From Acaryochloris sp. CCMEE 5410 (GTDB lineage: Bacteria; Cyanobacteriota; Cyanobacteriia; Thermosynechococcales; Thermosynechococcaceae), in the NCBI RefSeq assembly GCF_000238775.2, contig NZ_AFEJ02000002.1, positions 868,001 through 932,000 on the forward strand: a DNA stretch of 64,000 nucleotides, in the 5' to 3' direction. Within the stretch, counting starts at the first letter, position 1. Every line of letters starts with the position of its first letter. Of this stretch, positions 7,684 to 35,778 are shown one piece after another. The notes below the pieces were generated by a model. The model was not told where the DNA came from. It ran no database searches and saw only the letters and a list, made by a program, of their open reading frames with translations. The position numbers were made by a program, and so were the translations under genes.

Positions 7684-8787
7684 CTATTCGCCAGCAGGCT
7701 GAGCTGCTTCTGTAGGCTGGGAAGATTCAACTTTGAAAGCCGCACCAAGAGCTTTAGGGAGATTTTCAAACTTGACGCCCATGGCTCTGAGGCTATGGAA
7801 TAGATGGCCCTGCAAGCAGTAGAAGCCAACATAGTAAGTCACATTGGATAGCCAAGCTCGGGAGCTATACACACCATCTCCTAACTCAACCGAGTCCTTG
7901 AAGTAAGGGGCAACGTTAAATTTCACTTCCAACGCAGCACCGTAAAACTCAACCGGATAGACAAAGGTATTGACCGCACAAAAATAGGCAGAAATAAATC
8001 CCATGATGGCAACACCGCCTAGGGATAAGCCAATCAGCCCATCAGCGCTATAGTTATCTCGTCGAGCACCTAGCTGTTGTTCCCAACTAAAGGGGGCGAC
8101 ATTAATATGCCAAATTCCGCCGAGCATGTCGAAGAGGCCAATTAAAATATGACCCGCGGCTAAATCCCCTAAATTATCGATAAAAAATGGATTAAATCCA
8201 GGCGTTGACCAACCATATTGGTAGATATGGGTAAAGTTCTCAGCCGTGGGGGTGACAGCATGAACCTCCCCAACGGTGGGGTCATAGATACCATGATTGA
8301 TCATCCAGCCTGCAAACAGGATTGAAGCGAATCCAATAAAAAGGAGGTGATTGCCTAAGATATATCCCAACTGTTTTGGATCATCCCAGTCAAAGGCAAA
8401 CCGTTTTGTATTTCCTCGGCCTCCTTTAGACAGGTCAGACGGCCCCACGGCAAGATGATAATAGCCACCAAATAGGAGAACTAAACTCGCAACCCAATGC
8501 ACAAAGGCAATGGCAAAGTAGGGGAATGTATCCGTAACCACTCCCCCTGGACCGACGCCTATCCCTTCAGCTGCCATATGAGGGATTAGCACTAATCCCT
8601 GCTCATACATAGCAACATCGGGGTCAAAGACCTGTAATTCCGATAGGGTATTGAGCCCCACCCAGAACATAATAATGGCCGCTTGGAGAATATGGGCAGC
8701 TAACCATCTCCCTGAAACAGAGGGTTCAATTAAGCGGCTATTCCCTGCATACCAGGGATAGTCTTGGTTTTCAATCGAGGATTCCAT
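7684..8787 (-). CDS. Pcb/IsiA-family chlorophyll-binding antenna protein
   Basis: 367 aa, related to the CP43 core antenna but lacking its large lumenal loop E. Six hydrophobic helices are evident, with conserved His ligands in contexts such as WLAAHILQAAIIMFW, IAFVHWVASLVLLFGGYYH, LGNHLLFIGFASILFAGW, LAAGHILIGLFDMLGGIWH and LQGHLFHSLRA. These bind chlorophyll (chlorophyll d in Acaryochloris, chlorophyll a in IsiA) around PSII or PSI. The C-terminus adds a short polar tail (ESSQPTEAAQPAGE). The sequence alone does not say whether this is a constitutive PcbA or iron-stress PcbC/IsiA copy. A TPR gene lies 68 bp upstream and a one-TM protein downstream, same strand. Confidence 0.93.
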   Translation of the reverse strand: MESSIENQDYPWYAGNSRLIEPSVSGRWLAAHILQAAIIMFWVGLNTLSELQVFDPDVAMYEQGLVLIPHMAAEGIGVGPGGVVTDTFPYFAIAFVHWVASLVLLFGGYYHLAVGPSDLSKGGRGNTKRFAFDWDDPKQLGYILGNHLLFIGFASILFAGWMINHGIYDPTVGEVHAVTPTAENFTHIYQYGWSTPGFNPFFIDNLGDLAAGHILIGLFDMLGGIWHINVAPFSWEQQLGARRDNYSADGLIGLSLGGVAIMGFISAYFCAVNTFVYPVEFYGAALEVKFNVAPYFKDSVELGDGVYSSRAWLSNVTYYVGFYCLQGHLFHSLRAMGVKFENLPKALGAAFKVESSQPTEAAQPAGE

Positions 8788-8855: not shown

Positions 8856-9542
8856 TCAGTACGGAACAAGAGCGATTTGTGACTCTTGTTGTGAAGGGAT
8901 AAAACCAGGCGCTTGTGGTCGCGAGTGATCGCGACGGTTTAGTTTTTTCAGGACAACATGACGATATTGCTGGGCCGCAACATCGTTGGGGTCGATCGCT
9001 AAAGATTTTTGGAAAGAGGCTAATGCTTCTTCATACCGTTCCAGCTTGATCAAGGTATCGCCCCGATTATTCCAGGCGAGAACCTGTCCACTAAATCCCC
9101 ATTGCTGATCACCAATTAAAGCCATGTCACAGGAATCTAAGGCTTCGGGATATCGACCTAAGACAGTGAGAAGACCGCATCGGTTGGCCAAACCCAGGGA
9201 GTAATCGGGCTTCAGCAACAAGGCATTTTCAAAAGAAATCAAAGCTTTCGTATATTGACGAAAATCGAATAGCTTTTGGCCATGGTTGATCCAAGCTGCG
9301 GCTACATGGGGATTGATCTTCAAGGCTTGTTCACAAGCTGCTAAGGCATCTTGGCCTTGAAGATGTTCACATTGCTTGAACCAATATAGAAATTCTGCTT
9401 TGTCCGAGGTCGATGATGGTTCACCTTGAGGATGAGATGAGTGACTATCGGCACTGGGAAGCGCCATCGCTGCCGATGAACCATTCAAGAAAATGGCACC
9501 TGCTAGAAAAATGGTGATTAATCTGAGAGCAATGCGTTTCAT
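8856..9542 (-). CDS. Secreted/lumenal TPR-repeat protein
   Basis: 228 aa from ATG 9542, chosen because AAAGGTGGAG sits just upstream; an earlier ATG at 9563 is less likely. The signal peptide is MKRIALRLITIFLAGAIFLN, with probable cleavage after AMA-LP. About four TPR units follow (AAWINHGQKLFDFRQYTKALISFENALLLKPD, LANRCGLLTVLGRYPEALDSCDMAL, AWNNRGDTLIKLERYEEALASFQKSLAIDPN). TPR proteins act as assembly scaffolds. Position directly upstream of the antenna gene in the same direction suggests, but does not prove, a role in antenna or photosystem assembly. Confidence 0.8.
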   Translation of the reverse strand: MKRIALRLITIFLAGAIFLNGSSAAMALPSADSHSSHPQGEPSSTSDKAEFLYWFKQCEHLQGQDALAACEQALKINPHVAAAWINHGQKLFDFRQYTKALISFENALLLKPDYSLGLANRCGLLTVLGRYPEALDSCDMALIGDQQWGFSGQVLAWNNRGDTLIKLERYEEALASFQKSLAIDPNDVAAQQYRHVVLKKLNRRDHSRPQAPGFIPSQQESQIALVPY

Positions 9543-9988
9543 ATCTCCACCTTTCATGGGCACTGAATCCTGCAGACTTTGCTAGATTCTCGTTCTAGTC
9601 AGTCAAGGGTAGGATTCAGTTTTGCAGCAATAGTCTGATGCTGGGGCGGCGTGCAATAACCACGGCCTAGCCCTGAAAAAAAATAGGGAACTGAGTACTT
9701 ACAGCTCCCCTTGCCATGTCTCTGAGAGGAGAACATTTTTTAGAGCGATCAATGATTGCCAGAATAGTTTTATTGAAAGTAAGTGTCAATAATCTAGATG
9801 TGCAGCTGTAATAAAACTCAATAATATTAGAGCTGATAGATAGCTTGGCAGCAGATTTATGCAGTAAAACTAACTATTCACAATGGATTTTGAACTTTTT
9901 GTCGATAGATGCGATTTTGATCTGTTGGCAAGCTTGTGTAATTATTGAGATATACTATCAATAAAAATTGTACAGAGGATTATCACCG

Positions 9989-10603
9989 ATGATTCGCAAT
10001 AGTCTCAAGCGTTTGCTGATCAGCGCTGTAGGTGTGTGCTTAGGTTTGTTGATGATGACTAATTCCGCATGGGCTACCACCTACTCCTTCAAGAGTGCTG
10101 GCAATATTGGAGATGAGGGAGTGATCTCTGGCAAGGTTTCCTATGACAAAGATACTGTGGTCAATGCCTTAAATAGTGGCAAAGATTTGGAAGGGTTAAT
10201 GGGCAGCTTAACCATCAATGATTTGGGTAAGGATGCAAGATTTTCTTTTGAATATATTTCTCCCCATACGGGGGTAAAGCATACAGAAGAGACCATCTGT
10301 AATCGGAATATTTATGATTTGGATAATGGTCAAGACGGAAATTATTCAATTGGCGGCCAGGATGGTCCTTTCTTTAGCTTTGACAGTGGCGGCAACTTGT
10401 ATTTGGTAGACTTCAAGTCCTGTGTTGGCGAAGAAGGTGGACTAGCCAGCTCAATTTCCAAGAGAGATCCCAAAATTGCTTATAGTGAGCTGGATGTGCA
10501 GTTTAGTCAATATAAGTTGGCTGAATTCGACTATATCGGCAACAAGCCCCCTAGATTTATCCAGAAAAATATAAAAATTAAGTTCGACAGAGAAATTGCT
10601 TAA
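9989..10603 (+). CDS. Secreted hypothetical protein
   Basis: 204 aa from ATG 9989, preceded by AGAGGA at a suitable distance. The N-terminal signal peptide is clear: MIRNSLKRLLISAVGVCLGL then LMMTNSAWA-TT. The mature part is beta-rich and acidic, with two Cys (ETICNRN and FKSCVGEE) that could form a disulfide, as expected for a periplasmic protein. No family is recognised. The 400 bp upstream (9564-9967) holds only its promoter region. The ISAs1 element begins 173 bp downstream. Confidence 0.7.
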   Translation: MIRNSLKRLLISAVGVCLGLLMMTNSAWATTYSFKSAGNIGDEGVISGKVSYDKDTVVNALNSGKDLEGLMGSLTINDLGKDARFSFEYISPHTGVKHTEETICNRNIYDLDNGQDGNYSIGGQDGPFFSFDSGGNLYLVDFKSCVGEEGGLASSISKRDPKIAYSELDVQFSQYKLAEFDYIGNKPPRFIQKNIKIKFDREIA

Positions 10604-10776: not shown

Positions 10777-11942
10777 CAGGGTTGTTTTACGTTCCTCCTA
10801 GAAAAAATAGGATGGTTCTACTGACCAACAGTAGAGAGACCGATGAGCCATCTAATCGATACTTTGAAGCAAGTCCCGGATTTCCGCAGTGCCCATGGCC
10901 GTATTCATCCGTTATGGCTGCTGTTGCTATTGATGGTGATGGGCATGCTTGCTGGATATCAAGGGTACCGTCCGTTAGAAACCTTTGTGAGCGATTATCG
11001 CCAGCCTTTAAGTGAGCTATTGGGGCTTGAGAGCCTCGAAGTTCCGTCTCACTGTACCTTTCGTCGAGTGATGAAGGGTCTTGACTTCCAAGCGTTGAGC
11101 CACCAATTTGAAGCATGGATGCTCTCGAAAGCCCAGACTCACTCTCCCGATAATTATGCAGCCTCCATTGATGGCAAACGGATTCGTCAGGGGCTGACAG
11201 ATGCCAAGGGGAAGCAGCGTTTTGTAGGGTTGGTGAGTTTATTTGCGGTGGAAGCAGGCACCACCCTCAAGCTCGAAGCCCTCACTCAGGAGGATAATAG
11301 CGAAATCAAAGTCGTCCAGGCTTTGTTGGAAACCCTTCAACTCGATGGCTTGCTGATTACCATGGATGCCTTACACGCCCAAAAAACACTTGAGAAGATT
11401 GTGGCCTCGGGTAACGACTATCTTGTGGCGGTCAAATCCAATCAGGGAAGACTTTACGACCACCTCCAGACTTACTTTGAGTGTCTTAAACCCATGGCTG
11501 AGCACATCCACTCCGCCCAAAGTAGAGGACGAGATGAACATCGGTGTATACAGGTTTATGAGCCTGTCGGCATAGCCCTACAAGAATGGACAGCAATTCG
11601 CTCTGTGCTTTGTGTCCAACGATGGGGCACAAAGCAAAGGAAAGGAGTATCACAACACGGCCTATTACATCAGTTCAGCTGCCACCTCACCCCATCATTG
11701 GCAATCTCTGGTCCGAGAACATTGGGGCATTGAAAATCGGTTGCATTGGCCGAAGGATGTTGTTTTTGGCGAAGATGATTATCGACTCGAAGATGAACAA
11801 GCACTGCTCAATTGGTCAGTGCTTAGAACTATTGGGATTAATATCCTGCGGCTAAACGACTATCAATCCCTCAAAACCGCGATGACTAAGCTTGCTAATC
11901 GGGTCGATATTATTTTTTCGCTGCTAACTTAAAACAGCCCTG
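10777..11942 (+). mobile_element. ISAs1-family element, copy 1 (1,166 bp)
   Basis: Ends are CAGGGTTGTTTTA and TAAAACAGCCCTG (imperfect inverted repeats beginning CAGGG, as in ISAs1). It is bounded by a perfect 10-bp target duplication GGTGCCCTAG at 10767-10776 and 11943-11952. It lies between the secreted-protein gene and a membrane-protein gene and interrupts no recognisable coding sequence. A near-identical copy sits at 56096-57259. Confidence 0.95.
10843..11932 (+). pseudogene. ISAs1 transposase, frameshifted (copy 1)
   Basis: DDE transposase of the ISAs1 family: N-terminal domain with FRSAHGRIHPLWLLLLLMVMG, catalytic Asp in YAASIDGKRIRQG, second Asp in LITMDALHAQKT, and Glu in REHWGIENRLHWPKDV. 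The frame from ATG 10843 runs to QRWGT and then shifts at about 11631, where GGGGCAC is followed by ten bases (AAAGCAAAGG) against nine in copy 2 (TCGCAAAGG). The catalytic Glu and C-terminus continue in another frame to 11932. Unless recoding occurs, the protein is inactive. Confidence 0.88.
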
Positions 11943-12093: not shown

Positions 12094-12465
12094 ATGCACT
12101 TTCTTTTTGAAATTCCTGATCCGCCATACTTTTTGATTGGCATTGCTGCCCTCTGCGGATTTGCTTGTGGCAAAGCGTTTGAAGTGTCAATCAAACGCAA
12201 AACAAAAGAATGGTCGGAGGGATTATCTGAAAAGCCACTCAGGAATGTTAATGAACCCAGGTTATTTGTACCTTACCTAGGGATTTGTATTTGTAGCTGG
12301 ATTTTTGTGGGTTCATCCTTAACGACTTTTGCTGTTACCTGGGCTGTTGGATTTACCATGTCTACTTTTGTGGTGCTATCCAGTGGGCTATTGGTGTGGT
12401 ATCAGCTGGGAATACTTCTAAGAACTTTAGAGGAAGGCGGTTCAGAAGCCTTAGAAATTAAATAA
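12094..12465 (+). CDS. Hypothetical membrane protein
   Basis: 123 aa with an N-terminal hydrophobic segment (PPYFLIGIAALCGFACGKAF), a charged stretch (SIKRKTKEWSEGLSEKPLRN), then two further hydrophobic segments (FVPYLGICICSWIFVGSSL and FAVTWAVGFTMSTFVVLSSG). Three membrane helices are likely, with a short acidic tail. No known family is recognised. It converges on fur, with a shared terminator-like hairpin between the two. Confidence 0.6.
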   Translation: MHFLFEIPDPPYFLIGIAALCGFACGKAFEVSIKRKTKEWSEGLSEKPLRNVNEPRLFVPYLGICICSWIFVGSSLTTFAVTWAVGFTMSTFVVLSSGLLVWYQLGILLRTLEEGGSEALEIK

Positions 12466-12480: not shown

Positions 12481-12500
12481 AGGGGTAGATCGCTACCCCT
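12481..12500. terminator. Bidirectional hairpin between converging genes
   Basis: AGGGGTAG ATCG CTACCCCT forms an 8-bp stem, followed by TTGCAATTTT on the plus strand. The right arm overlaps the fur stop codon (12493-12495), so it would serve mainly the rightward transcript. Confidence 0.55.
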
Positions 12501-12936
12501 TTGCAATTTTGCAAGTTGGGCAAATGGCATGAATCGTCAATTGACAGTCTAGGAGATGAAATCCAGATTGCTTCGCTTTACTTTTCCCCACTTTGAGGAT
12601 GGAATCGCTTTTAAACTCAATCGTCTGATTACATTTGACGCATATCAGGTGATGGTGATGATTCGGGTAGGGTTGATTTAGCTCATAGTGCTTATGCCCT
12701 TCAGCGAATTCCAGCTCTCGGAGTATTCCCATATGGGACATAAGCTTAGTGTTTCTATAAATGGTGGAAAGGCTGATGGGGTTACCTTGTTGCATTAACA
12801 GCTCGTAGAGATCTTCGGCGCTGAGATGTTGCCCTTTCTCCAATTCTTGGAAGGCCGTCAATATGATTTCCCGCTGAGGAGTCAGTCGCCAACCTTGCTC
12901 ATTTAATTCGGCTTTGAGTGAGCTAGAAGTATACAT
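12493..12936 (-). CDS. fur: Fur-family ferric uptake regulator
   Basis: 147 aa from ATG 12936 (AGGA six bases upstream). The winged helix spans SLKAELNEQGWRLTPQRE to LSTIYRNTKLMSHMG; the metal sites are EGHKHYELNQ, the HHHHLICVKC cluster and the C-terminal CPTC pair. The start and domain spacing match cyanobacterial FurA more than Zur or PerR, but paralogues are hard to separate by eye. With Fe2+ it represses iron-uptake and iron-stress genes. It is divergent from psbE and the psbF-psbY fusion, and a Fur-box-like palindrome lies in the shared 425-bp region. Confidence 0.88.
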   Translation of the reverse strand: MYTSSSLKAELNEQGWRLTPQREIILTAFQELEKGQHLSAEDLYELLMQQGNPISLSTIYRNTKLMSHMGILRELEFAEGHKHYELNQPYPNHHHHLICVKCNQTIEFKSDSILKVGKSKAKQSGFHLLDCQLTIHAICPTCKIAKG

Positions 12937-13324
12937 GTACCGTCCTGACAAGATATTTTCCTATGGGCCTGAGGGGATAGATGCCTGTATATAAGGGCAG
13001 CGGCTAGTGATAGCTGAGGTTGTGATGTTGTTTCCACAAAATCATTCCAAGTTAAAGAGCTGTGTCCAGGCTTAACAGTAGATAAAGGACAACACACTAG
13101 GCTGAGGTTTAGGGCGTTCAGTCTGTCTCCAAATTTACAACAATTCTCAATAAAAATTAAAATCATTGCTCATGAAAGGGCAAAAAATGGGCTGGTGATG
13201 ACGATTGGCTCCTCGCTTCCAAGGGCTGGATTTGCGCCGTTATAGCTTTTACTTATCAAATCTCTAAATGAGAACAGAAATCATCTCTTGCATTATTGAA
13301 AATTAGTTGCAATAATAAGCCTGT

Positions 13325-13339
13325 GAATAAGAATTATTC
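13325..13339 (+). promoter_or_regulatory. Fur-box-like palindrome upstream of psbE
   Basis: GAATAAGAATTATTC is a near-perfect inverted repeat (GAATAA/TTATTC) resembling the AT-rich Fur consensus GATAATGATAATCATTATC. It lies 22 bp before the psbE ATG, where a bound repressor would block transcription or elongation. A second AT-rich palindromic stretch (TTGCATTATTG...TTGCAATAATAA, about 13288-13320) lies just upstream. The assignment is inferred from sequence similarity and the adjacent fur gene. Confidence 0.5.
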
Positions 13340-13361
13340 TCAACTAAGTTAGGAGATGCTT

Positions 13362-13634
13362 ATGGCCGGTGTAACAGGTGAGCGCCCGTTTGGTGAGATT
13401 ATCACCGATTTTTCTTTCTGGAAGCTCCACGTTATTAATATTCCAGCTATTTTTATATCGGGATGGCTCTTTGTCAGTTCTGGGCTAGCATACGATGTTT
13501 TTGGAACTCCCCACCCTAATGAGTATTTTTCTCAGTCTGAGTCTCAAATTCAAATTGTGACGGATCGGTATGCCGGTAAACAGCAAATCGATGATTTTCG
13601 CAATCTTAGTCCAAGTCTTGATACCAACAATTAG
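13362..13634 (+). CDS. psbE: Cytochrome b559 alpha subunit (divergent copy)
   Basis: 90 aa from ATG 13362 (AGGAG seven bases upstream; the in-frame ATG at 13356 is too close). The single helix carries the heme-ligand His in [19 protein letters not shown], followed by the conserved lumenal motif [16 protein letters not shown]. It differs from typical PsbE in the segment before the helix ([13 protein letters not shown] instead of ..RYWVIHSITIP) and has a longer tail. PSII cytochrome b559 needs one PsbE and one PsbF. The usual psbE-F-L-J operon is not kept: no psbL or psbJ follows. It is likely an alternative or stress-specific copy. Confidence 0.92.
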
Positions 13635-13646
13635 GAGGCATTCGAT

Positions 13647-13946
13647 ATGACGGCAAGAACTCAGCTCCAGCGACCGCCCCAAAGGAAATATCCTATCTAT
13701 ACGGTGCGCTGGTTGGCGGTCCACACATTGGGCGTTCCTTTGGTGTGGTTCCTCGGTGCAATTGCATCTATGCAGTTTATTAACCGAATGGATGCCTATG
13801 AAGCTGTTACCCCAACGATGATTGCTGGAATTGATCTGCGGCTAGCCTTGGTACTGGCTCCCATCTTGTTCTCGGTTGTTTGGAACATAATCTTCTTTGG
13901 AGGTCCGACGTTGCAAGAACTCCAAGAAGTCTTACAACGCGAATAA
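13647..13946 (+). CDS. psbF: PsbF-PsbY fusion protein
   Basis: 99 aa, starting 12 bp after psbE behind an AGGAGG site. Residues 1-47 are PsbF, cytochrome b559 beta: [17 protein letters not shown] with the heme-ligand His, then [14 protein letters not shown], where normal PsbF (about 44 aa) ends. The frame continues without a stop through a linker ([14 protein letters not shown]) into a second helix, [18 protein letters not shown], and a tail [11 protein letters not shown]. That half matches PsbY (pattern 'MDwRv.vv.aPll.a..Wa...G....ql..vl.re'). PsbY sits next to cytochrome b559 in PSII, so the fusion is structurally plausible. No ribosome site precedes the PsbY half. Confidence 0.85.
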
Positions 13947-13969: not shown

Positions 13970-14005
13970 GACACTCTCTTGAGGCAGAAGGGGGTGTCTT
14001 TTTTT
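13970..14005 (+). terminator. Terminator after the psbF-psbY fusion gene
   Basis: GACACTCTC pairs imperfectly with GGGGTGTC and is followed by TTTTTTT, 24 bp after the stop codon. Confidence 0.65.
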
Positions 14006-14047
14006 GCTTCTGTTGGTAGGTATGAACAAAATTTTAGGTGCAATATT

Positions 14048-14152
14048 ATGAAACCGATCTTTTCAAACCAAGTTGTCTTTTTAACTCGATTGGTATGGAT
14101 TAGTTTGGGATTGACCATCAGCCTGTTGGTGGAAGTCGTTGGCAAATCCTGA
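14048..14152 (+). CDS. 34-aa single-helix membrane peptide
   Basis: ATG 14048 to TGA 14150-14152, with AGGTG about nine bases upstream. The peptide begins MKPIFSNQVVFLTRLVWISL and continues GLTISLLVEVVGKS: one hydrophobic helix with short charged ends, the size of low-molecular-mass photosystem subunits. It does not match PsbI, J, L, M, T, X or PsaM as I know them. It lies beyond the terminator of the psbE/psbF-Y unit in the same direction, so it may have its own promoter. Coding status is uncertain. Confidence 0.4.
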   Translation: MKPIFSNQVVFLTRLVWISLGLTISLLVEVVGKS

Positions 14153-33183: not shown

Positions 33184-35778
33184 ATGAACTCTGATCAACT
33201 TCAGCCCAACCCCTCGGATCAAGCCTTCTCGATCCAATATTCTTCTCCTCTACACCACGCTAAACAGTTTGTCAGGAAGAACTTGGTGGCAACCCTTGCC
33301 ATTTCTGTTGCTACTAACCTAATAGTGGCAGCAGGCTGTGGGGTGAGTATCTGGAATAGTTCACGTAACCTAGAACAGATTTCAGAACGTGAACTGCAGC
33401 TGCAAAAGAACACTGGAGATATTACCTATCTCGATGAAGTGCTGACCATGTCGGCTCGAATGGCTGCCAGTACGGGAGATTTAGCATGGCTCCAACGCTA
33501 CGAGAATCATGTGCCTTTATTGGATCAAGCCATTGCTCAAACTTTAAAGAATGTGACCGAGGACATTCGGGCTGATGCGAGTAAAACGGATGCAGCCAAC
33601 AAACGGCTGATTGAAATAGAAGATCAGGCGTTTGGACTGGTCAAGGCCAACAAAGCGGAAGATGCACAAAAGCTACTGGCAGGGGAAGAATATGAGCTAC
33701 TGAAAGCCCAGTATGCTGAAGGCAATCGACAGGTTATTAAGCGCATTGAGATCTTTATCAATCAACAGCTAGAGGCCTATCAAAACCAACTTAAGAATTC
33801 CATTAACTTTGCCGGTTTGGTGGCTTTCCCTATCCTGTTGGCTAGCTGGATTTTGGTTTTAGCTGCTGTCCGTGATTACGTTCGCGATAAGCAAGCCACC
33901 CAGGACAAGATTAACCAATCTCAGCTGGATCAATTGGTCTTGAATAGCCAGCTCCAAGAAGAGATCGATACTCGGAAACGGCAGGAAGAAGAGACTCGCC
34001 AGGATAATGACCAATTGCAAGGAGACATTATCGAGCTACTGGACGTGGTTGCCAATGTAGAAGAAGGAGACTTTACCACCCAAGCTACGGTGAACGATCG
34101 AGCGACGGGCTTAATTGCAGATACCCTCAACCGGTTGATTGAAGAACTCGGCAGTATTCTCAAGCAGGTCTCGGCTACTTCCCGTCAAGTTTCGGCAAGC
34201 AGTATCCGCCAAAAAGATATTTCCGAAATTGTGGCCCGGAACACCGATCAGCAATCACAAGAAGTTATGCAGGTCTTGGGCTTGATTAATGACGTTCGCT
34301 CCTTTGCTACCAACGCCGCTCAGCAATTGGCAACCACCAACCAATCTTTGGTGACCCTCAATACTGCTGTGGCCCAAGGTCAAGTTGAGATTGGTTCGCT
34401 GGGGGAAGAAATTGATGTGCTGCAACAGGGTAGCGATCGCATCGTGCAGCAGATGAAAACCCTAGGGGAATTTGTGGGTCTAACGGATCAATTTGTGCAG
34501 GACCAAGGGGATATTGCTGAACAAACCCAGATGTTGGCTTTGAATGCAGCATTGGTAGCCGCAAGAGCCTCTGAACAATCCGATCCGAAGCGATTTGCCC
34601 AAGTGGCACAAGAATTTGAATCGATTGCGAACCAGGTCAGTCAACTCGCTCAACAAACCAACGATGGCCTCGGGTCTCTAGAACAACGGAGCGCTCAGAT
34701 TCACCGGGTTGTAGCCGATGTAGACGCCGATGTGCAACGACTAGGCGGCGTGGTGGATGACTTTACCCAAGGGGTTCGACATACCCAATCCGTGTTCCAA
34801 AAGGTACAAGATGTGACGGGGCAAGCGGTCGCATCTGGTGAGGCCGTCGCCAAAACCAGTGAAGAGATTGTTCACACATCGGAACAAACGGCGATGACCA
34901 TGGAGGCCATTGCCCAACTCTCGAACCAAATTGCAAGTCAGTCGGATGATGCGCAACAGTTAGCGGATACCATGAATCAGCTTTCTGATGACTTGTTAGA
35001 GAAAGTCAAAGTCTTCACTCTGCCCGAAGAAGACGAATTCACCCTGCTCCAAACGACTCCTGTCGAACAGCCTGAGGCATTCACTGCTGATTCACAATCT
35101 GAAGATTTAAATCCCATTGTGGAATCAGAAGAAATCGCCTCGCCATTGGAATATGAAGAATTAAGCCCTATGGCAGAATCGGAAGAATTCACGTCTGAAG
35201 CACAATTCGAAGAATTCACATCTGCATTGGAATCCGAAGAAGTTACGACTGCTGAACAATTCGGAGAATCCATTCCTACTGAAGACTTGGAAGAATCCAC
35301 TCCTGTATTGGCATCAGAGGAATCTGTACCGGTTGCGCAAACCGAGAAACTCGAAGCGGTTGAAGCATCCATTCCTGCTGCAGAATCCGAGGCATTGTTC
35401 CCTTCTATGGAATGTGCAGACTTGACGCCTACGGCAGAATCCGACGCATCTGTTCCTGTTGAACAATCTGAAGATCTCACTCCTCTGATGGACTCTGAAG
35501 CAGTCATGCCAACGGCAGAGTCCGAGGAATCCTTGTCTGCTGAGTCCTCTGACGAATTCACTCTTGCTGAGCAATCTGAGGGATTAACTTCAAATCCGGA
35601 CTCCGTAGAAACCATTGCTGTTGAGCCATCCGACGAGTTAATTTCTGCTGAAGAATCCGAGGAACCCACTCCTGCTGCAGAATCTGAAGAATCCACGCTT
35701 GCGGAACACTCCGAAGACGCTGTTGCTGCTGAAGAATCTGAGGAATCCGCTTCATCTGAGTCAGCACTTGCTGTCTAG
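33184..35778 (+). CDS. PilJ-like methyl-accepting protein with long acidic tail
   Basis: 864 aa from ATG 33184 (MNSDQLQPNP); the TTG at 33133 is unlikely. Helix 1 (about 33-55) and helix 2 (about 206-228) bracket a PilJ-type sensor region (LQLQKNTGDITYLDEVLTMS). HAMP-like and signalling coiled coils follow (about 290-610), with the hairpin tip MLALNAALVAARASE; the canonical Glu before AAR is Val. From about residue 620 to the end is a 240-aa Glu/Ser/Ala/Pro repeat tail, absent from ordinary receptors. No GAF/bilin domain is present, unlike Synechocystis PixJ1. It is followed 49 bp later by a paralogue. Confidence 0.9.
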   Translation: MNSDQLQPNPSDQAFSIQYSSPLHHAKQFVRKNLVATLAISVATNLIVAAGCGVSIWNSSRNLEQISERELQLQKNTGDITYLDEVLTMSARMAASTGDLAWLQRYENHVPLLDQAIAQTLKNVTEDIRADASKTDAANKRLIEIEDQAFGLVKANKAEDAQKLLAGEEYELLKAQYAEGNRQVIKRIEIFINQQLEAYQNQLKNSINFAGLVAFPILLASWILVLAAVRDYVRDKQATQDKINQSQLDQLVLNSQLQEEIDTRKRQEEETRQDNDQLQGDIIELLDVVANVEEGDFTTQATVNDRATGLIADTLNRLIEELGSILKQVSATSRQVSASSIRQKDISEIVARNTDQQSQEVMQVLGLINDVRSFATNAAQQLATTNQSLVTLNTAVAQGQVEIGSLGEEIDVLQQGSDRIVQQMKTLGEFVGLTDQFVQDQGDIAEQTQMLALNAALVAARASEQSDPKRFAQVAQEFESIANQVSQLAQQTNDGLGSLEQRSAQIHRVVADVDADVQRLGGVVDDFTQGVRHTQSVFQKVQDVTGQAVASGEAVAKTSEEIVHTSEQTAMTMEAIAQLSNQIASQSDDAQQLADTMNQLSDDLLEKVKVFTLPEEDEFTLLQTTPVEQPEAFTADSQSEDLNPIVESEEIASPLEYEELSPMAESEEFTSEAQFEEFTSALESEEVTTAEQFGESIPTEDLEESTPVLASEESVPVAQTEKLEAVEASIPAAESEALFPSMECADLTPTAESDASVPVEQSEDLTPLMDSEAVMPTAESEESLSAESSDEFTLAEQSEGLTSNPDSVETIAVEPSDELISAEESEEPTPAAESEESTLAEHSEDAVAAEESEESASSESALAV
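35080..35776 (+). repeat. Acidic ESEE-type repeat tail of the receptor
   Basis: About 24 imperfect units of eight to eleven residues, centred on ESEE/QSEE/PSDE with Pro-Thr-Ala spacers (for example EESEEPTPAAESEESTLAEH). At DNA level the units share GAATC(T/C)GA(A/G)GAA blocks. Such arrays expand and contract by slippage, so length may vary among strains. The tail would be strongly negative and disordered in the cytoplasm. Confidence 0.85.

Follow-up and report, generated by a model that had tools for sequence, protein, structure and literature searches.

A PsbF protein with an in-frame PsbY-like extension is part of a second cytochrome b559 in Acaryochloris

The psbF2Y gene of Acaryochloris encodes a PsbF that is joined in one frame to a PsbY-like domain, and the fusion is real, old and selected, and part of a second cytochrome b559 rather than of the main one. 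It occupies positions 13647-13946 on the plus strand of the window (the whole 64-kb stretch of DNA that was analysed, which lies on contig C2 of the 8.09-Mb genome G000), and the translation gives 99 residues in an uninterrupted frame with a single terminal stop. The first-pass annotation had placed the gene at these coordinates and had read PsbF as continuing in frame into a second helix, and both readings are borne out by the translation, by Pfam and NCBIfam, and by the recurrence of the open join in 12 genomes.

The first half of the protein, residues 1-47 (13647-13787, plus strand), is a PsbF that has kept the heme-ligand His26. Taken alone it matches PF00283 with E 5.3e-12, the whole protein matches the same Pfam family at residues 13-37 (E 3.8e-11), and residues 14-47 pass the NCBIfam model TIGR01333 cyt_b559_beta with 65.1 bits against a cut-off of 61.15. 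A typical PsbF has about 40-45 residues, stops after the lumenal Arg and is encoded in psbE-F-L-J; this chain extends 52 residues further, and the protein is classed as a PsbF paralogue that carries an additional domain rather than as a typical PsbF. A linker of residues 48-61 (13788-13829, plus strand), that would be lumenal by analogy with the topology reported for Chlorella ohadii (PMC10416949), leads to the PsbY-like domain of residues 62-99 (13830-13943, plus strand). In this domain PF06298 is matched at residues 62-82, with E 0.0022 in the whole protein and 6.6e-4 in the second half alone, at 18.3-19.9 bits and under the cut-off of 24 bits, and NF009711 at residues 62-99 with E 2e-5, at 23.9 bits and under the cut-off of 48. 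A profile of the fused C-terminal halves, aligned with hhalign to eight canonical PsbY proteins, gave a probability of 97.0% (E 9.8e-11, 40 columns) and also matched PsbY chains in the PDB, e.g. 7n8o_R at 1.2e-5, and in four relatives the fused half passes the PF06298 cut-off (G088 29.5, G194 26.4, G092 25.6 and G364 24.2 bits). Each of the 12 fused proteins in the alignment has matches at E<=0.05 to PF00283 and to PF06298, as well as to the NCBIfam models of PsbF and PsbY, and since both domains are conserved in every one of them a chance similarity is excluded. Pfam gave only cytochrome b559 and PsbY for the 12 proteins at this threshold, which rules out that the C-terminal helix is another small subunit of photosystem II (PSII); NCBIfam gave PsbF models, PsbY and one stray match in one member. 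The profile comparisons thus establish, at the level of sequence, a homology of the second half to PsbY, as the first-pass annotation had claimed, and its counter-case of no similarity to PsbY profiles fails. Because the homology is shown, yet the window copy misses the curated scores and is not free-standing, we file it as a PsbY-like domain and not as a PsbY.

Separate translation of the PsbY part from an internal start is ruled out, because no start codon is conserved in the codon alignment of five Acaryochloris. The window copy has in-frame ATGs at codons 48 and 58; in the other four (loci L047, L049, L048 and L050) codon 48 is AGC, AGT, AGT and AGC, and codon 58 is GTA, ATT, GTG and GTC, where the GTG of L048 could in principle serve as a start. 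By eye, no Shine-Dalgarno-like run precedes either ATG in the window, and the earlier view that there is no internal ribosome site stands. Neither a stop nor a frameshift breaks the frame in the window or in 11 other full-length relatives, each from another genome, and this recurrence rules out sequencing error and read-through. The AlphaFold model of the fusion is weak (pLDDT 61.7), and among the matches listed for it by Foldseek/VIA there was no PSII chain, 7ymi_F included.

Directly upstream lies psbE2, the gene of an alternative cytochrome b559 alpha subunit (13362-13634, plus strand; the listed open reading frame starts at 13356), which passes TIGR01332 with 117.3 bits against a cut-off of 93.95 and matches PF00284 at 1.7e-18. 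The unit is read as psbE2-psbF2Y, because an AGGAGG of Shine-Dalgarno type, read from the sequence, overlaps the psbE2 stop and precedes the start at 13647 (13633-13638, plus strand), a computed terminator-like hairpin with a T run stands 3' of psbF2Y (13970-13998, plus strand), and no psbL or psbJ reading frame was seen after the fusion when the list of the window's reading frames was gone through by eye. In L047 and L049 the fusion is followed by a gene, of the HupE/UreJ family in L047, whose start resembles a 57-residue frame at 13979-14152 of the window; that frame looks like a truncated remnant. The first-pass annotation had asked after a separate psbY and a second psbE-psbF, and the genome holds both: a free psbY at C1:2626370 (E 1.1e-15, 61.1 bits), and a canonical psbE-psbF pair at C1:3212507-3213006, followed by 38-residue frames which we take to be psbL and psbJ. 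The fusion locus is thus the second psbE-psbF locus of the genome, and since the canonical pair exists elsewhere, psbE2-psbF2Y is not the housekeeping operon. A renewed search of 14 genomes gave a free psbY above the Pfam cut-off in 11 (the misses G001, G004 and G092 are all drafts) and a canonical psbE in 12; the two misses, G004 and G005, have pieces of canonical psbF at contig ends.

The relationship between the two cytochromes was analysed in a tree of PsbE and residues 1-47 of PsbF, with the PsbY part left out, from 39 distinct rows that represent 92 loci; the canonical rows come from the vicinity of loci that had been retrieved, 10 of them from family f2. One branch separates 13 alternative from 26 canonical rows with support 100/99, and the tree thereby defines psbE2-psbF2Y as a second cytochrome b559 family that forms one clade. 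The heme ligands are kept in all 13 alternative rows (His26 of PsbF and His23 of PsbE2), and so are the arginines at PsbE 8 and PsbF 21. Arg18 of PsbE, which we take to lie near the heme, is present in 26/26 canonical rows and in 0/13 alternative ones, which have Ser (6), Gln (6) or Glu (1). All 13 alternative rows also have Phe19 instead of Tyr and Asn26 instead of Thr in PsbE, Ser33 instead of the canonical Ala (one canonical row has Thr), and Tyr18 and Trp34 in PsbF where the canonical protein has Phe. In Chlorella ohadii an N-terminal Arg of PsbY has been reported to form a lumenal salt bridge with PsbE Asp45 (PMC12789144). Asp45 is kept in 12/13 PsbE2 proteins, and an Arg stands at position 65 in 11/12 full-length fusions, and also in the truncated copy of locus L012; the sole exception for both is G009, with Ser45 in PsbE2 and Thr at 65 in the fusion, and this coincident loss gives weak support to the two residues as a salt bridge pair. 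The pooled pN/pS, over 10 pairs from five Acaryochloris and with synonymous sites near saturation, is 0.159 for PsbE2, 0.074 for the PsbF half, 0.205 for the linker and 0.146 for the PsbY half, values that indicate purifying selection on both halves of the fusion.

The occurrence of psbE2-psbF2Y is patchy across cyanobacteria. A survey of 388 genomes of the class, themselves a sample of a larger group, turned up the full fusion in 11 (G000, G003-G006, G009, G081, G088, G092, G194 and G364), which includes five of the seven genomes of its own genus (G000 and G003-G006), and a twelfth full copy is found at L011, in a metagenome-assembled genome deposited as 'Trichodesmium sp. MAG_R03'. The join is open in these 12 genomes, our own included, and 11 of them spread over six genus codes. 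Family f13 has a match in 4 of 63 genomes, family f20 in 2 of 6, and the order of G009 in 1 of 2. One of the f13 matches is a thirteenth genome, G175 (Leptolyngbya sp. Heron Island J, locus L012), where the match to the fusion ends near residue 75 and adjoins a frame that reads as a transposase. In a fourteenth, G002, only residues 48-99 are retained, adjoining fur; here (L058, 8003-8131) psbE2 and the PsbF half are gone and the PsbY half survives as an open frame. Spread by phages or plasmids is rejected, as no relative of the fusion was confirmed in viral contigs and none was matched in plasmids.

Published structures and mutants suggest what the fusion could do. In Chlorella ohadii PSII, PsbY lies antiparallel to the helices of PsbE and PsbF, which run from the stroma to the lumen, and shields the heme (PMC10416949); Arabidopsis without PsbY is reported to have cytochrome b559 in the low-potential form only (PMC9214863). 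The C-terminus of PsbF and the N-terminus of PsbY are on the same side of the membrane, and therefore the fusion would need no extra membrane crossing and its predicted topology fits the published structures. The first-pass annotation had proposed that the covalent joint fixes both topology and stoichiometry of PsbY; the topology agrees with the Chlorella ohadii structure, while the stoichiometry would be fixed only in complexes that carry the alternative copy. The scheme that we lean towards, with somewhat better than even confidence in the whole of it, is that the product of psbF2Y is the beta subunit in a second cytochrome b559 of stress type, with one heme held by PsbE2 and the PsbF half through the conserved histidines. 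The PsbF helix would pass from the cytoplasm to the lumen and continue into the short lumenal linker, and the PsbY-like helix would return to the cytoplasm, packed beside PsbE2 and PsbF2 in the way that free PsbY is in ordinary PSII. The tether would turn a weakly bound and easily lost PsbY into a permanent 1:1 part, which would shield the heme and favour one redox form. The pair would be made once a Fur-family regulator releases the promoter, for which iron shortage is the likeliest trigger, and in the window a Pcb/IsiA antenna, a TPR protein and an exported protein would be made with it. That the fusion assembles into PSII, and that its tether fixes the redox form of the cytochrome, are probable consequences of this scheme rather than observations.

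A case for iron can be made from the region upstream of psbE2. A fur-family gene (12493-12951, minus strand; PF01475, 2.5e-40) is divergent from psbE2, and a fur homologue adjoins the fusion in four other Acaryochloris and the remnant in G002. A membrane-like protein of 123 residues without known family (12094-12465) stands beside fur, in L047-L050 too. Upstream of psbE2 the five Acaryochloris have two stretches in common, one TATTGAAAATnAnTnTCAATA-like and one AAGAATTATTCTCAAT-like, and another conserved stretch, TTATTGACAA...TCAT, is found upstream of psbE2 in four f13 loci. With the first upstream stretch as seed, where a palindromic box of the type TATTGA-N9-TCAATA lies at 13296-13312, we searched the window for the pattern TTGANAATNANTNTCAA at <=2 mismatches and found six places in the 64 kb: 9773, 9945, 13134, 13296, 13327 and 37948. 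These include a second box-like site upstream of psbE2 (13327-13343), one nearer to fur in the stretch between fur and psbE2 (13134-13150), and two in the gap that separates the TPR gene from the gene of the exported protein (9773-9789 and 9945-9961). Two intergenic regions, 9564-9967 and 12952-13361, thus hold five of the six in a total of 814 nt. Counted on both strands there are 11 matches against a shuffled mean of 3.99, with none of 100 shuffles reaching 11, and in local dinucleotide shuffles, with a mean of 0.03 sites per region, the observed 2 and 3 sites were reached in 0 of 1000 each; the box at 13296, being the seed, is present by construction in this test. A genome-wide pattern, TATTGANANTNNNTNTCAATA at <=2 mismatches, drawn up after the window sites had been seen, gave 39 forward and 30 reverse matches; a reversed control gave 7 and 1. 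At <=1 mismatch there are 10 places in the genome, three of them in this cluster, the seed included, and three (C1:4047371, 4053755 and 4058610) in an island of iron-uptake and Pcb genes, with FecCD, three periplasmic binding proteins, a TonB receptor, an AraC-type regulator, two Pcb-type genes tested with Pfam, a class I aldolase and plastocyanin. This island was retrieved as L140 and L141 (G000:C1:4034000-4064000), and a third gene of Pcb/IsiA type was seen in it by eye. Some 36 nt separate the box at C1:4047371 from a downstream gene that passes the TIGR03041 cut-off, and one at C1:286313 stands about 240 nt ahead of a frame that by eye is Pcb-like; the remaining three places have by eye no iron-uptake or Pcb neighbour.

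Fur boxes would look like such shared palindromes, and from their sequence we infer that these are candidate Fur boxes, which would suggest iron-stress control of psbE2-psbF2Y. A generic 19-bp Fur consensus of E. coli type beat the shuffles at the 5% level in only one of 13 psbE2 upstream regions (L049). In A. marina MBIC11017 under three oxygen regimes, AM1_1129 was found at 20, 20 and 20 and the psbE gene AM1_1130 at 47, 21 and 33, and the canonical psbE AM1_2630, at 34,459, 11,070 and 17,313 (RPKM, upper-quartile), was among the most abundant transcripts (PMC5295598). AM1_1129 and AM1_1130 are presumably the orthologues of psbF2Y and psbE2, and that they are almost silent is a point against the stress-type explanation (PMC5295598). 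The signal may also be light rather than iron; far-red control is a live alternative, because a review reports that far-red light raises 'psbE2' (PMC5438491).

Among the neighbouring genes, an exported-looking protein without any Pfam or NCBIfam family (9989-10603, plus strand) has a weak, mostly beta AlphaFold model (pLDDT 67.1) with no usable match in Foldseek (best E 0.018, TM 0.12), and an exported-looking TPR protein (8856-9563, minus strand) has the same distribution. At 68 nt downstream of the TPR gene is a gene for a chlorophyll antenna of the Pcb/IsiA family (7684-8787, minus strand), with 359.9 bits for TIGR03041 against a cut-off of 335, and E 6e-146 to chain 1 of PDB 7ymi. Distant genomes also have the TPR and exported genes next to the fusion, at L011, L012/L057 (one genome), L054, L055 and L056; these genes have no match in the pieces L047-L050 from four other Acaryochloris, or in L051, L052 and L058, and the piece L053 ends at the fusion. 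The Pcb gene of the window has no match in any other fetched piece and is near the fusion only here. The grouping of genes is therefore partly the window's own. Frames that by eye look like an interrupted transposase, at 10843-11932 between the exported-protein gene and fur, split the cluster. FecCD genes (L055) and AraC-type regulators (L053 and L054) adjoin psbE2 or its cluster; no iron-uptake genes were found among the tested neighbours in L011, L051 and L056. At L056 there is a cation-efflux gene and an NAD(P)-binding protein with a weak match to lysine/ornithine monooxygenases (siderophore type), and L047 has a nickel superoxide dismutase in the vicinity of the fusion; close homologues of it occur in L049 and L050. 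A free PsbY-like peptide of about 40 residues (...DLRLLLVLSPIT.AIAW...) is found in the same loci as the fusion in six cases (L011 3430-3546, L051 8366-8494, L052 8012-8134, L054 8591-8731, L055 6420-6545 and L056 5190-5312), with weaker copies at L007 6353-6499 and L010 4348-4488, and none was matched in the window. It aligns to PsbY with an hhalign probability of 94.8% (E 5.5e-8), and with this extra peptide the number of PsbY-like segments that pass the Pfam cut-off in G088 is three.

A bolder reading, which we consider possible, although we would not call it probable, is that scattered cyanobacteria keep a dedicated iron-stress PSII, or PSII intermediate. It would have its own cytochrome b559 with the redox form locked by the tether, made of PsbE2 with altered surroundings of the heme and PsbF with a built-in PsbY shield, with the free PsbY-like peptide in several genomes and TPR and exported proteins as lumenal partners, and its chain would already stand, truly or by misassignment, in the model of the A. 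marina PSII-Pcb supercomplex. That model is PDB 7YMI according to a review (PMC12661325), and 7YMM has also been used as A. marina PSII (PMC12138183). Chain F of 7YMI/7YMM, named 'Photosystem II protein Y', has 99 residues, of which 97 are identical to the psbF2Y product (P0001), and chain E equals the canonical PsbE of the window's genome over residues 2 to 80 and differs from PsbE2. Queries with canonical PsbF and PsbY of this genome gave no further 7YMI chain among the matches listed. Either the fusion enters PSII together with canonical PsbE, or the sole annotated PsbF stands in the model where a canonical, unannotated one belongs, and we consider the second more likely. The only psbF named in the main text of the transcriptome paper is AM1_1129 (PMC5295598), which is probably chain F, and we suspect that the modellers took the one psbF that was annotated.

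If the deposited chains are taken at their word, the fused protein would be an ordinary constituent of A. marina PSII that pairs with canonical PsbE, and the near identity of chain F, together with the absence of a separate chain for canonical PsbF or PsbY among the matches listed, speaks for this. We think it unlikely, as chain E is the canonical subunit and not PsbE2, as the transcript of AM1_1129 stays at 20 in all conditions and that of canonical psbE is highly abundant (PMC5295598), and as canonical psbF adjoins canonical psbE in the window's genome. It could also be that PsbE2-PsbF2Y has left PSII altogether and works as a membrane b-type cytochrome with the TPR and exported proteins, e.g. 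reacting with quinol or superoxide. The lack of psbL and psbJ after the fusion in the window, the exported-looking partners that recur beside it, and a heme region that differs from the canonical one in every row (Arg18 of PsbE, 26/26 against 0/13) would agree with such a role, but the Asp45-Arg65 pair and the PsbF and PsbE cores remain PSII-like and the cluster in the window has a Pcb/IsiA antenna gene, and independence from PSII is distinctly improbable to us. Cleavage after insertion, giving a separate PsbF and PsbY, has a parallel in plants and algae, where a longer precursor contains copies of PsbY, and a cleaved product of about 5 kDa has been seen in plants (PMC4823308, PMC10416949); the linker varies in both length and sequence between clades, with no processing motif that by eye is shared, and we find it very unlikely that the fusion is cut. 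That the pair is a decaying duplicate without function, as the near-floor transcripts in MBIC11017 (PMC5295598), the transposase-like frames nearby, the truncation in Heron Island J and the lone PsbY half in G002 could hint, is hardly credible given a pN/pS of 0.07-0.16 in PsbE2 and both halves (synonymous sites near-saturated) and the conserved upstream stretches.

The fusion matters in several respects. The role of cytochrome b559 and PsbY in PSII is still debated (PMC12661325, PMC4823308), and the fusion, a natural protein in which PsbY is kept from leaving the cytochrome, offers a ready-made test case for that debate. Cyanobacteria have been stated to have only one psbY (PMC4823308), which the fusion goes against. 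The pairing of chain F raises a checkable doubt about a deposited PSII structure, i.e. a possible misassignment of paralogues, and PSII-type subunits are added to a suspected iron-stress response. We found no description of a PsbF-PsbY fusion in the titles and abstract openings of the open-licence literature searched.

Among known systems, the fusion resembles canonical PsbF (TIGR01333, in psbE-F-L-J) in the heme-ligand His, Arg21, the core sequence and the psbE upstream, and differs from it in the C-terminal PsbY-like domain, in Tyr18 and Trp34, in its separate clade, and in having neither psbL nor psbJ after it in the window. The fused domain shares with cyanobacterial PsbY (PF06298, NF009711) the Asp-x-Arg start and the Pro and Trp of the helix, but it is not free-standing and carries an FG(G/K)PT-like motif after the helix. 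Plant and green-algal PsbY precursors likewise hold PsbY within a longer chain, but they join PsbY copies to each other and not to PsbF (PMC4823308, PMC10416949). The 'long form' of PsbF (NF002717, NF002720) is, like the fusion, a PsbF of nearly 100 residues; its PsbF part is however C-terminal (profile positions 55-92 of 97) and its extra part N-terminal, the opposite of the fusion, which stays under both models with 55 against a cut-off of 153 and 46.9 against 127. An alternative cytochrome b559 has to our knowledge not been described as a member of the IsiA/Pcb iron-stress regulon, and what the psbE2-psbF2Y locus has in common with that regulon is a box of the same type as the one ahead of a Pcb/IsiA gene in the iron-uptake island.
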